Of a DNA stretch of 64,000 nucleotides, positions 4,376 through 8,463 are shown in pieces. The stretch covers positions 1 through 64,000 of the forward strand of contig JADZDX010000013.1 of the NCBI GenBank assembly GCA_020850835.1, written 5' to 3'. Within the stretch, counting starts at the first letter, position 1. Every line of letters begins with the position of its first letter. The notes under the pieces were generated by a model. That model made no database searches, was not told the DNA's origin, and saw only the letters and a program-made list of their open reading frames with translations. Position numbers and translations under genes: made by a program. This DNA comes from Fimbriimonadaceae bacterium (GTDB lineage: Bacteria > Armatimonadota > Fimbriimonadia > Fimbriimonadales > Fimbriimonadaceae).

Positions 4376-4403
4376 TCGTAACTGATTTTAGGCTCGGGCG
4401 TCC
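4376..4403 (+). promoter_or_regulatory. Candidate ECF-type promoter of the sigma gene
   Basis: GTAAC (4378-4382), 16-nt spacer, CGTCC (4399-4403): the AAC/CGTC architecture typical of autoregulated ECF promoters. Confidence 0.5.
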
Positions 4404-4427: not shown

Positions 4428-5072
4428 ATGAGCACGCTAGCGTTAAATCTGCAGAAAAGCATGCAAAACCCCGCCAAGACCCTGTCCATCGCGGGCGACA
4501 GCGAGACTGATGAGTCTCTAGTCGTTCGGGCCAAACAGGGCGATTGGGGTGCTTTTGAGACCCTGTTTAACCGCCACCGCACCCTGGTGTATCGATACGC
4601 CTATCAGATGGTGCAACGGAGGGACGATGCTGAAGATATCGTGCAGGAAGTCTTTGTCCGTGCCTACAAGAACCTAGATCGCTATCGGGATGAAGCGAGA
4701 TTCACGACGTGGCTCTTGCGGATCGCCACCAACCTTGCGACCGATCGAGCTCGAATGAGCACCCGTCGCCAAGCTCTTGAGCAGCAAGAGGCTCAAGGTG
4801 CCTTGACGTGGATGACCACAAATGTTAGTGAAGATCCAGTAGAAAACCTGGAATCAGAAAGGAAAGTGTTGATTCTCCGCAAGGCACTCAATGCCATGCC
4901 TGAGCACCATCGCAATATGATCATTTTGAGAGATATTGAAGAGCGGGACTACGAAGAGATCGCCGGTATTTGCGGAACGTCGGTTGGTGGGGCCAAATTG
5001 CGCGTTCTCCGCGCTCGACGCGCTCTGCGCGATCGAATGTTGCCGCTCCTCGAGGAGGACGAGAATAAATGA
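4428..5072 (+). CDS. ECF-family RNA polymerase sigma factor (RpoE-like)
   Basis: YRYAYQMVQRRDDAEDIVQEVFVRAYKNLDRYRDEARFTTWLLRIATNLATDRAR (sigma2) and MIILRDIEERDYEEIAGICGTSVGGAKLRVLRARRALR (sigma4). Confidence 0.93.
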   Translation: MSTLALNLQKSMQNPAKTLSIAGDSETDESLVVRAKQGDWGAFETLFNRHRTLVYRYAYQMVQRRDDAEDIVQEVFVRAYKNLDRYRDEARFTTWLLRIATNLATDRARMSTRRQALEQQEAQGALTWMTTNVSEDPVENLESERKVLILRKALNAMPEHHRNMIILRDIEERDYEEIAGICGTSVGGAKLRVLRARRALRDRMLPLLEEDENK

Positions 5073-5791
5073 GAGATGACCAAGAACTGAAGTTTGCTGC
5101 CGGCGAGATGTCTGATGTCGAGCTTCTGGCATTTGAGCAATCTCTCACCCCCGAAATCCAGGAGTTCAAGTCAGTTTTTTCAAGCCTCAAGCTACTGAGC
5201 CAAGGGATTCCGGAACCTCAGATTAGCTTTGACCGAGTTAGGCACGCCATCGAAAACAGCCCGTCGTCGCCGATACCACATTGGACAAGGTGGCTTGCTT
5301 GGGCGACACCCATTGCAGTCATGGGAGCACTCGCCATCGTCATGATGCGACCCGCCGCACCGACATCTCTAGGTCAAGTCGAGCAACCTAAGGCGGTCGC
5401 TCAGGCGACAGAACCAGAGTTGCACCGCACGCCAACCATGGAGAGCACCAGTCCCCGCGTGATCGCACCGACACCAGCAAAGACTACAAACGGCGCAACG
5501 GCTCAGACTGAATCTCGAAGTAATCGAAGACTTCGTCGTCACGCACGCGCCGTACTCGTCGCCCAGAACAGAGAAGAGTTTCGTCGTCCCAGTGAGGGAC
5601 TGCCGAAGGCTGCGCCCACCCCAACCAATAGCGCAAACACAGTCCAGCTCGCACCAGCGCCCGTGGAAGCTGTTGAACCAGCACAGCCGCAAGAGTCAGT
5701 TGTTGTGGTCTCTTCGACCCCGAACGAGCAAACTGGCGCAAACGCCGCCACGGAGGTAACTAAACAAACTGATGATGTACTTGGCGGCTAG
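5069..5791 (+). CDS. Putative anti-sigma factor / membrane-anchored protein
   Basis: ATGA coupling to the sigma gene; N-terminal cytoplasmic-like region, one TM (WLAWATPIAVMGALAIVMM), low-complexity extracytoplasmic tail. Confidence 0.6.
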   Translation: MRDDQELKFAAGEMSDVELLAFEQSLTPEIQEFKSVFSSLKLLSQGIPEPQISFDRVRHAIENSPSSPIPHWTRWLAWATPIAVMGALAIVMMRPAAPTSLGQVEQPKAVAQATEPELHRTPTMESTSPRVIAPTPAKTTNGATAQTESRSNRRLRRHARAVLVAQNREEFRRPSEGLPKAAPTPTNSANTVQLAPAPVEAVEPAQPQESVVVVSSTPNEQTGANAATEVTKQTDDVLGG

Positions 5792-6755
5792 CGTTGCACT
5801 CCTAATGAATAGCGGGGTAACACCGCTCTCAGATGGGCTTGCCCTACTTGGGACGAAAGACAACCCAACGGGTGTTGCGGTCCAGATTGACAAGGAACAC
5901 CTGTTTTTGGTCGCATCGAACTTGGTGCCAACCGAGACCGCAACAGCCTATTGCGCGAAGGGCGACCACTATACGGTTCGCGTCGTGGCACGAGACGACA
6001 TCACCCAACTTTCATTAGTTAGGATTGAAAACTGGCCCAGCCAATCAAGCCGCGTATTCCAGGTTGCCAGCGAGAAGGTAGTTGCCACGACAAAGTTGGC
6101 GGCACAGCTTCCGAGCGGGATTGTCCCCGGACAGTTAGTCTCCATGGATAGAACCGGGGTCCTCATGGGCTCACGTCGATATGTCCGCCTCTGGGAAGTT
6201 CGCTTTGAATCCACCGATCAAAAGCTAGGTGGAGCACCAGTCTTTACGGTTGATGGCCGCCTTGCCGGAATCATGAACGCAACTCTCCAGCCATACGGCG
6301 AGGTCATTACCGCCAAGATTCCCTTGGACGCCCCTCCCAGATTTGGGCCAAAGGGTATGACAGTTGGCTATGCTCTTGGGCCCAAAGTGCTCTCCCGTGT
6401 GGTTGAGGGATTCTTGAATGAAGACCGCACCCCGCTACACCCAACGGTTGGCATGTACTTCCGTAAAGCCACAGGGGGGGGTGTAGAACTCACCTCAATC
6501 ACCCAGGGCTCCGCGGCAGCTCGAGCTGGCCTCAAGGTTGGCGATGTTCTCACTAAGCTAGACAATGAAGTGATCAAAGACGCCTACTGGCTAGCCGCCC
6601 GTCTATTCGAATCCGAGATCGGTGAGTCCCTGCAGTTTCAAATGCGACGAGACGAACGAGTTAGCTCCATCAAGATTATCGTTGAGAGCCTCTCCGAAGC
6701 GAGGCAAAACCGAGAAATCGGCCCCCGCCTTACGACTCTGGCGCCAAATCACTAA
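5772..6755 (+). CDS. PDZ-domain protein with degenerate trypsin-like (HtrA/Deg) fold
   Basis: N-terminal hydrophobic segment; HtrA-like blocks; PDZ GVELTSITQGSAAARAGLKVGDVLTKLDNEVI; overlaps the previous CDS by 20 bp. Confidence 0.7.
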   Translation: MMYLAASVALLMNSGVTPLSDGLALLGTKDNPTGVAVQIDKEHLFLVASNLVPTETATAYCAKGDHYTVRVVARDDITQLSLVRIENWPSQSSRVFQVASEKVVATTKLAAQLPSGIVPGQLVSMDRTGVLMGSRRYVRLWEVRFESTDQKLGGAPVFTVDGRLAGIMNATLQPYGEVITAKIPLDAPPRFGPKGMTVGYALGPKVLSRVVEGFLNEDRTPLHPTVGMYFRKATGGGVELTSITQGSAAARAGLKVGDVLTKLDNEVIKDAYWLAARLFESEIGESLQFQMRRDERVSSIKIIVESLSEARQNREIGPRLTTLAPNH

Positions 6756-8463
6756 TCACCCACTGGGGGCGCTCACGACCGTTCCAGCGGTTTATGTTCG
6801 CTTCAAACACCAACGAGACCCGATCCTTCTGGTTGACTTCTTCCAACGCTTGGCTCATGCCGAAGCCAAGGGCCTCAATCGATGACCCCTCAGGACTTCG
6901 CAGAATCAGCTTTGCATGCTCGGGCTTGTTGGGCATTGGGCTGATGGACTCAACGGATAAATGGCTGGCCAAAAAGGAGGGCTCCGGATTCCCAGCTCCG
7001 AATGGTGCCAGCTTCTCCAACTCGTGAAGTACCTCAAGACTACACTCCTCTACTGTCGTCTCGGCGTCAATTCGTCTTCGTCTGATCAGAAGGTCGGGAG
7101 TCAACATCTGGGCGGCGTCCTGCTGGATTGCCTGCCGAAAGTCTTCTACTTTCTCAACCTTGGTACCGAAGCCGGCGGCCGCCTCATGCCCACCGTGGTT
7201 GTCGAGGTGTTCGGTAACTCGCTTGAGAGCATCGGCAAGGTGATAACCGGGAATAGTGCGCGCCGAGCCCTTTGCCAGACCATTCTCACCATAGGTCATC
7301 ACGAAAGCCGGGCGATAGAAGCTTTCGGCCAACCGGCCAGCCACCAGGCCAATGATCCCCGGATGCCATTCCGCGCTCCCGACCACAATTGCCGTCTCTT
7401 GATCAAGCCCCTCGGACAACACCTTTTCCTTGGCCTCGGCAATGATTCGGTCCTGTTGCTCGCGCCGACTGGTATTAATCACTTCCAACTGACCAGCAAT
7501 CTCGGCCGATTCGGTTTCATCCTCGCTCAATAGCAACAATAGTGGTAACTCGGCGTCTGCAATGCGACCCGCCGCGTTAAGTCGAGGGCCCAGTTGGAAG
7601 CCGATAGTCCGAGGCGTAACTCGACCGTCCCGAACAGAGATGTTCTGCATCAGCGCTCTGATGCCGGGCTTGCGGCTCTGGAGGATGCGCTCGCAGCCAA
7701 ACGCAGCAATCACTCGGTTTTCGTCCACCAATGACATTACATCCGCAACCGTCCCCAGAGCCGCGAGGTCAAGGTAGGCGCGATAGTACTGGGCCACATC
7801 AAGTCCAAGTTCAGCGGTTATTCCTGCACAGAGCTTGAACACAACCCCGACGCCACTTAGGCCGTCGAATGGATACTTGTGCCCTTCCCGGTGGAGATTG
7901 ACAAACGCATCGGCCTGCGGCGGAGCCCCGTCGTGGAGTTCGTGGTGATCCGTCACCACAACGCGCATGCCGTACTGCTTGGCCCGTTCAATCTGTTCTA
8001 TCGCTCCGCTACCGCAATCGCAAGTTAGGAATACGCTGGCTCCCGCCTCCTTCGCCTTCTCAACAGCAATCATATTGATGCCATAGCCTTCCTTTATTCG
8101 GTGCGGGACATGCGTCGTGACATCGCACCCAATCCGGCGCAGGAACCGGCTAAAGAGAGCCGCCGACGTAATGCCGTCCACATCATAGTCACCGTGGATG
8201 AAGATCATTCGTCCTTCTTCCTTCGCGCCTAGAATCTCCTTTACTGCGGCGTCGAAGTCGGGCAGGAGGCGGGGGTCATGGAAGTGATCGAGACGTGGAT
8301 TAAGGAAGCGTTCCGCGGATTCCGGTGTACTGTATCCGCGCTGTACGAGGAGCCGCGACACAAGGCTACTCACGCCAAACTCGGAGACTAAACGATCAGC
8401 CGCGACTTGGTCACAGACCGCAAGATCCCACTCCGCCCCTGTTAGGGATCGTTCAGAAATCAA
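6730..8463 (-). CDS. recJ: Single-stranded-DNA-specific exonuclease RecJ
   Basis: HGDYDVDGITSAAL, VVTDHHELHDGAPPQADAFVN and GFQLGPRLNAAGRI motifs. Confidence 0.93.
   Translation of the reverse strand: MISERSLTGAEWDLAVCDQVAADRLVSEFGVSSLVSRLLVQRGYSTPESAERFLNPRLDHFHDPRLLPDFDAAVKEILGAKEEGRMIFIHGDYDVDGITSAALFSRFLRRIGCDVTTHVPHRIKEGYGINMIAVEKAKEAGASVFLTCDCGSGAIEQIERAKQYGMRVVVTDHHELHDGAPPQADAFVNLHREGHKYPFDGLSGVGVVFKLCAGITAELGLDVAQYYRAYLDLAALGTVADVMSLVDENRVIAAFGCERILQSRKPGIRALMQNISVRDGRVTPRTIGFQLGPRLNAAGRIADAELPLLLLLSEDETESAEIAGQLEVINTSRREQQDRIIAEAKEKVLSEGLDQETAIVVGSAEWHPGIIGLVAGRLAESFYRPAFVMTYGENGLAKGSARTIPGYHLADALKRVTEHLDNHGGHEAAAGFGTKVEKVEDFRQAIQQDAAQMLTPDLLIRRRRIDAETTVEECSLEVLHELEKLAPFGAGNPEPSFLASHLSVESISPMPNKPEHAKLILRSPEGSSIEALGFGMSQALEEVNQKDRVSLVFEANINRWNGRERPQWVISDLAPES

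Follow-up and report, generated by a model that had tools for sequence, protein, structure and literature searches.

The window, that is, the whole stretch of 64,000 nucleotides that was analysed, holds a three-gene ECF operon preceded by a thiolase gene (Table 1). All three open reading frames lie on the same strand, with an overlap of 4 bp between the sigma and anti-sigma genes and of 20 bp between the anti-sigma and HtrA-PDZ genes; the three coupled frames are thus present as the initial annotation had described them. The first product matched the Pfam domains Sigma70_r2 (4e-20) and Sigma70_r4_2 (5e-12) and scored above the TIGR02937 cut-off, which confirms its earlier assignment as an ECF sigma factor. 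It is of the ECF type in having regions 2 and 4 only and a promoter of the −35 AAC / −10 CGTC type, and its orthologues align well across the core. A recJ-like gene on the minus strand (6730-8463) converges on the third gene, whose last 26 bp lie within it. The recJ gene is likewise convergent and downstream in most relatives from families f1 (the window's own family) and f5.

Table 1. Features of the operon in the window and the evidence for each.
Feature	Position	Strand	Evidence
Predicted autoregulatory ECF promoter	4377..4402	+	Motif upstream of sigma gene in orthologous loci
ECF sigma factor gene, 214 aa	4428..5072	+	Pfam Sigma70_r2/r4_2, TIGR02937
Predicted membrane anti-sigma factor gene, 240 aa	5069..5791	+	Zinc motif in orthologues, TM
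Anti-sigma factor, conserved tail (C-terminal 30 residues)	5699..5788	+	Pairwise identity above background
HtrA-PDZ pseudoprotease gene, 327 aa, predicted exported	5772..6755	+	hhalign, hydrophobic N-terminus, dN/dS
Asn50 codon, at catalytic His position	5919..5921	+	Profile alignment
Gln79 codon, at catalytic Asp position	6006..6008	+	Profile alignment
Gly153 codon, at catalytic Ser position	6228..6230	+	Profile alignment and intermediate sequences
PDZ domain with invariant loop glycine Gly227 (HPTVGM)	6447..6680	+	PDZ_2 E 8e-10

We searched 40 relatives for the same arrangement. An operon-linked HtrA-PDZ protein was found in 39, and in 38 of these the sigma gene is the second gene upstream of it; the remaining locus is cut by a contig end before the sigma gene. 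The arrangement is also that of families f8 and f12, two more lineages at family level elsewhere in the phylum. The window is Fimbriimonadaceae-like, and the phylum is accordingly taken to be Armatimonadota. Start codons are uncertain in some of the distant loci. All examined ECF factors with a match to the subgroup at E <= 1e-63 are followed by an HtrA-PDZ gene, and none of the ten next-ranked ECF factors examined is. The one relative from family f4 (G027) has no operon-linked protein, and in two g42 genomes, G212 and G216, both of 1.5 Mb, the gene is absent save for one weak match (3e-13). The operon can be lost, because it is missing from the two g42 genomes and the f4 genome.

The HtrA-PDZ protein and its catalytic triad

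On its own, the third protein matched PDZ_2 (residues 226-303) and gave a weak match to Trypsin_2 (0.04); its best relative in the PDB was DegP of E. coli (1e-10). When a profile of the f1/f5 family was aligned by hhalign with a profile of intact HtrAs, built from proteins of the same order, the match covered 267 columns with a probability of 99.9% and an E-value of 1.6e-31. Trypsin_2 was matched by 13 of 27 family members at E up to 0.01, the best at 5e-9. The HtrA-type domain and the PDZ domain that had been proposed earlier are therefore both present. The loop glycine Gly227 of the PDZ domain is 100% conserved among all operon-linked proteins.

We then compared the catalytic positions. In the profile alignment the catalytic His aligns with Asn50 and the catalytic Asp with Gln79, in agreement with the by-eye alignment of the initial annotation. 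Its third replacement, Ser to Leu, was shifted by one column: the Ser position corresponds to Gly153 and not to Leu152, because the intermediate sequences GSSGAP (family f8) and GEPGAP (family f2) fix the register. With this correction the complete triad is lost, as had been claimed (Asn50/Gln79/Gly153). Compared with HtrA/DegS proteins (S1C), the protein has the trypsin-like domain and the PDZ domain but lacks Ser-His-Asp. A functional triad elsewhere in the protein would have spoken against a pseudoprotease, and the alignment shows no alternative conserved pair of nucleophile and base. No highly conserved Ser, His or Cys that could act as a replacement catalytic residue occurs in the protease-like domain of the f1/f5 alignment; the most conserved candidates outside this domain are Ser247 (PDZ domain), Ser7 (leader) and His223 (linker before the PDZ domain). 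An AlphaFold model of the pseudoprotease from two sequences reached a pLDDT of 31, too low to be of use.

In about 45% of the f1/f5 proteins, among them the f1 orthologues L035, L038 and L043, a His stands two positions ahead of the former catalytic His (AHRS motif). This His is not present in the window copy.

Triad loss was then checked in the orthologues. None of the 69 operon-linked proteins keeps His-Asp-Ser, whereas all 25 intact HtrA paralogues from the same order do, and one branch with a support of 100/100 splits the operon-linked proteins from the paralogues. The catalytic pattern differs between lineages. It is always [Asp/Glu]-Asn-Ser in f8 and f12, [Asp/Glu]-[Gly/Asn]-[Pro/Gln] in f2, usually [Glu/Asp]-Asp-[Gly/Ala] in f5 and mostly Ser-Gln-Gly in f1. 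Against the nearest relative, dN/dS was 0.046 for the pseudoprotease, similar values being obtained for the sigma factor (0.062) and the thiolase (0.053), and a looser one for the anti-sigma factor (0.30); the pseudoprotease gene is thus under purifying selection.

The weak single-sequence match to Trypsin_2 might suggest an ordinary HtrA that has decayed locally or has been misannotated. However, the triad is lost in every linked protein, the reading frames are open and the dN/dS is low, by which local decay is ruled out and an ordinary HtrA of either kind becomes extremely improbable. From the sequence comparisons, the identification of the third product as a pseudoprotease and not merely a decayed copy is strongly supported.

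Acidic-base serine proteases exist, the sedolisins being an example. It could thus be supposed that the [Asp/Glu]-Asn-Ser members are cryptic enzymes of this kind and that the Fimbriimonadales copies represent later losses, since the exchanges of His for Asp/Glu and of Asp for Asn are fixed and the Ser is kept in 20/20 members of f8 and f12. However, the geometry of the chymotrypsin fold normally requires His-Asp, and within the order the motif is reduced to GEPGAP and GGAP, where the function must be non-catalytic. We consider such an enzyme very unlikely. The outgroup members with the inverted triad (L101-L108, L117, L118 and L216-L225) show an unusual pattern, which might have its own function.

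The anti-sigma factor and its C-terminal tail

The second protein of the window gave no Pfam match. A single TM segment is present (residues ~76-93), and the layout of the protein consists of a short cytoplasmic domain, this TM segment, a Pro/Ala-rich linker and a conserved C-terminal tail. The anti-sigma motif Hx3Cx2C occurs in 28/28 orthologues outside f1/f5, in 3/6 from f5 and in 0/34 from f1, and zf-HC2 was the top Pfam match, although below threshold, in the four motif-type orthologues scanned. Because of the TM segment, and of the zinc motif and zf-HC2 in the orthologues, the protein is most likely an anti-sigma factor whose zinc site was lost in family f1, which agrees with its earlier description as anti-sigma-like. 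The position of its gene directly 3' of the ECF gene and the single TM segment are also those of class I zinc anti-sigma factors (ASDI/ZAS); it differs from them in the Hx3Cx2C motif, which the window copy lacks together with all the other f1 copies. ASDI proteins without zinc are already known (PMC7406223).

The stretch from the TM segment to the last ~30 residues is unconserved, with a mean pairwise identity of 0.08. For the last 30 residues, the mean pairwise identity among 37 f1/f5 sequences was 0.30, against a background of 0.083 +/- 0.017. The consensus of the tail in f1/f5 is a hydrophobic strand, then TGAxxAxEV, and [D/N]VxxGG at the end. The last six residues of the f1/f5 anti-sigma factors overlap the start of the pseudoprotease gene, and part of the conservation at the tail end may reflect this overlapping gene. 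When the positions in the gene overlap were left out, the identity was still 0.25. Frame overlap as the sole cause was ruled out, because the conservation runs past the overlap and conserved tails are also found in lineages where the genes overlap little or not at all. In f2, no conservation above background was detected apart from the last residues.

The last residue itself is nearly fixed within each lineage. It is Gly or Ser in 35/37 f1/f5 sequences, Phe in 7/7 from f2, Tyr or Trp in 11/12 from f12 and Glu in 8/8 from f8, the last all from one genus. Such a near-fixed free C-terminus looks like a PDZ ligand. Aromatic C-termini are known ligands of the PDZ domains of DegS (YxF) and AlgW (WVF) (PMC8545111). 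The tails of f1/f5 end in -GG and those of f8 in -VE, neither of which is a classical ligand of HtrA PDZ domains.

Possible role of the pseudoprotease and comparison with known systems

The pseudoprotease of the window is probably exported, as its N-terminus is hydrophobic, but it lacks a positive n-region. The idea of the initial annotation that the pseudoprotease acts as a ligand sensor or scaffold is plausible, and two findings make it more specific, namely that the anti-sigma tail is conserved and that the PDZ domain has retained its loop glycine. Our preferred reading, to which we give a probability of about one half (0.48), is that the dead HtrA is a periplasmic co-regulator that would hold the anti-sigma tail and shield it from site-1 cleavage.

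For this co-regulator we infer, from sequence features, its export, the binding of the tail, the shielding, the ligand, the sign of the regulation and the protease that cuts. After export, the pseudoprotease would hold the C-terminal tail of the anti-sigma factor by its PDZ domain, by the degenerate substrate cleft, or by both. In the bound state it would shield the anti-sigma factor from site-1 cleavage, as RseB/MucB does in proteobacteria. Under stress, the tail would give way to exposed C-termini or to another ligand, and the anti-sigma factor could then be cut by an intact HtrA (or another site-1 protease) and afterwards by RseP. The released sigma factor would then drive transcription of its operon at the conserved promoter; more inhibitor and more pseudoprotease would be made and the system would be reset. 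RseP and two intact HtrAs are also encoded in the genome, so that the usual cleavage cascade could run without the pseudoprotease.

A bolder version may be proposed, in which the pseudoprotease is a receptor. Its PDZ domain would hold a built-in ligand mimic at the C-terminus of the anti-sigma factor, and stress-exposed C-termini would compete for it. The ligand-mimic C-terminus is still OMP-like aromatic in f2 and f12. If this were true, sensing would occur by displacement and not by protease activation; we regard it as doubtful, though worth keeping in mind.

HtrAs oligomerise through the protease domain, and intact HtrAs are present in the genome. The pseudoprotease could therefore be an adaptor or activator that, in mixed oligomers with an intact HtrA, delivers the anti-sigma factor and promotes its cleavage. 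A precedent is given by MamO, a dead HtrA that activates MamE-dependent proteolysis (PMC4794232). However, the operon encodes no intact HtrA, and the operon-linked and the intact proteins are highly divergent, so that this role seems rather unlikely to us.

The proposed co-regulator can be compared with several known systems. The E. coli RpoE-RseA-RseB-DegS system has likewise an ECF sigma factor, a membrane anti-sigma factor, an HtrA-PDZ protein and the RseP site-2 protease. DegS has protease activity and its gene lies outside the sigma operon, whereas the HtrA of the window operon is dead; an RseB-like gene is also missing from the latter. The positive feedback of the RpoE system on its sigma factor is a further likeness (PMC8103513).

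RseB/MucB is encoded in the sigma operon and works in the periplasm, where it binds the anti-sigma factor and governs its cleavage (PMC8103513, PMC10202637). The third protein here is also a product of the sigma operon, and its periplasmic location and its binding to the anti-sigma factor are proposed from sequence. However, it is an HtrA-PDZ homologue and gave no MucB/RseB match in Pfam or NCBIfam.

MamO of magnetotactic bacteria is similar in being HtrA-derived, with a degenerate active site and non-catalytic roles (PMC4794232). It keeps H116 and D149 and has Thr225 in place of Ser, whereas all three residues are lost in the window protein. Magnetosome function and metal binding belong to MamO, whereas the loci of the window type have an ECF/anti-sigma context. 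The sigE, rseA-htrA-tatB locus of M. tuberculosis shows the same order of sigma, anti-sigma and HtrA genes; however, its HtrA has been described as a serine protease that is essential, and its sigma gene is not co-transcribed with rseA (PMC10027907).

Switches of the sigma-E type are usually seen as protease cascades, with an HtrA making the cut. The HtrA of this operon probably acts by binding, because it is dead across a large part of the phylum and yet strongly selected. The lineages provide a natural series of catalytic loss in one conserved operon, with [D/E]-N-S, [D/E]-G-P and S-Q-G, and both the tail peptide and the promoter are defined well enough for the mechanism to be put to a direct test. 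In the open-access literature that we searched, we found no description of such a system.

Promoter and predicted targets of the sigma factor

In the window, the predicted promoter has the −35 element GTAAC (4378-4382), a 16-nt spacer and the −10 element CGTC (4399-4402), and 25 bases separate it from the ATG of the sigma gene. Of the orthologous loci, 51/57 carry the pattern [T/A]AAC-N15..17-CGTC upstream of the sigma gene, with G[T/A]AAC-N16-CGTC as consensus; first-order Markov shuffles gave a mean of 1.3 (max 5 of 200). This conserved ECF-type promoter implies that the sigma factor autoregulates its operon, as far as can be read from sequence. The −35 element is GATAAC in the outgroup loci L101-L108, L117-L118 and L216-L222 and mostly G[T/A]AAC within the order; in the same outgroups the −10 element CGTC is unchanged and most spacers are of 16 nt. 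Classical GGAAC...GTC promoter patterns showed no enrichment.

When whole genomes were scanned with the promoter motif, matches were no more frequent than for a backwards control pattern, and the strict motif therefore points mainly to the operon itself. The matches in the window's own genome lie mostly inside genes. One conserved second match sits inside a deaminase-like gene, and a widely shared match, CGTAACCGCCATGCTGACTTGACGTCA, appears to be 16S rRNA.

With few other promoter matches, the operon is the main predicted target of the sigma factor. HtrA proteins serve also as chaperones, so the pseudoprotease might simply be a co-expressed target, namely a periplasmic chaperone or scaffold that makes no contact with the anti-sigma factor. 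In M. tuberculosis, rseA and htrA share an operon for a reason that is unclear (PMC10027907). However, the HtrA-PDZ gene is fixed in the third position and tightly linked only with this ECF subgroup, and the 20-bp overlap and the co-conserved anti-sigma tails favour a direct partnership. A mere co-expressed target is thus unlikely.

The only other intergenic match next to a gene start in the window's own genome is L134 (G000:C8:966-990, minus strand). Here GTAAC-N16-CGTC lies just before a pilin/prepilin-like gene (FTLIELLVVIAIIAIL...), which is possibly a second target of the sigma factor, or the match may have arisen by chance.
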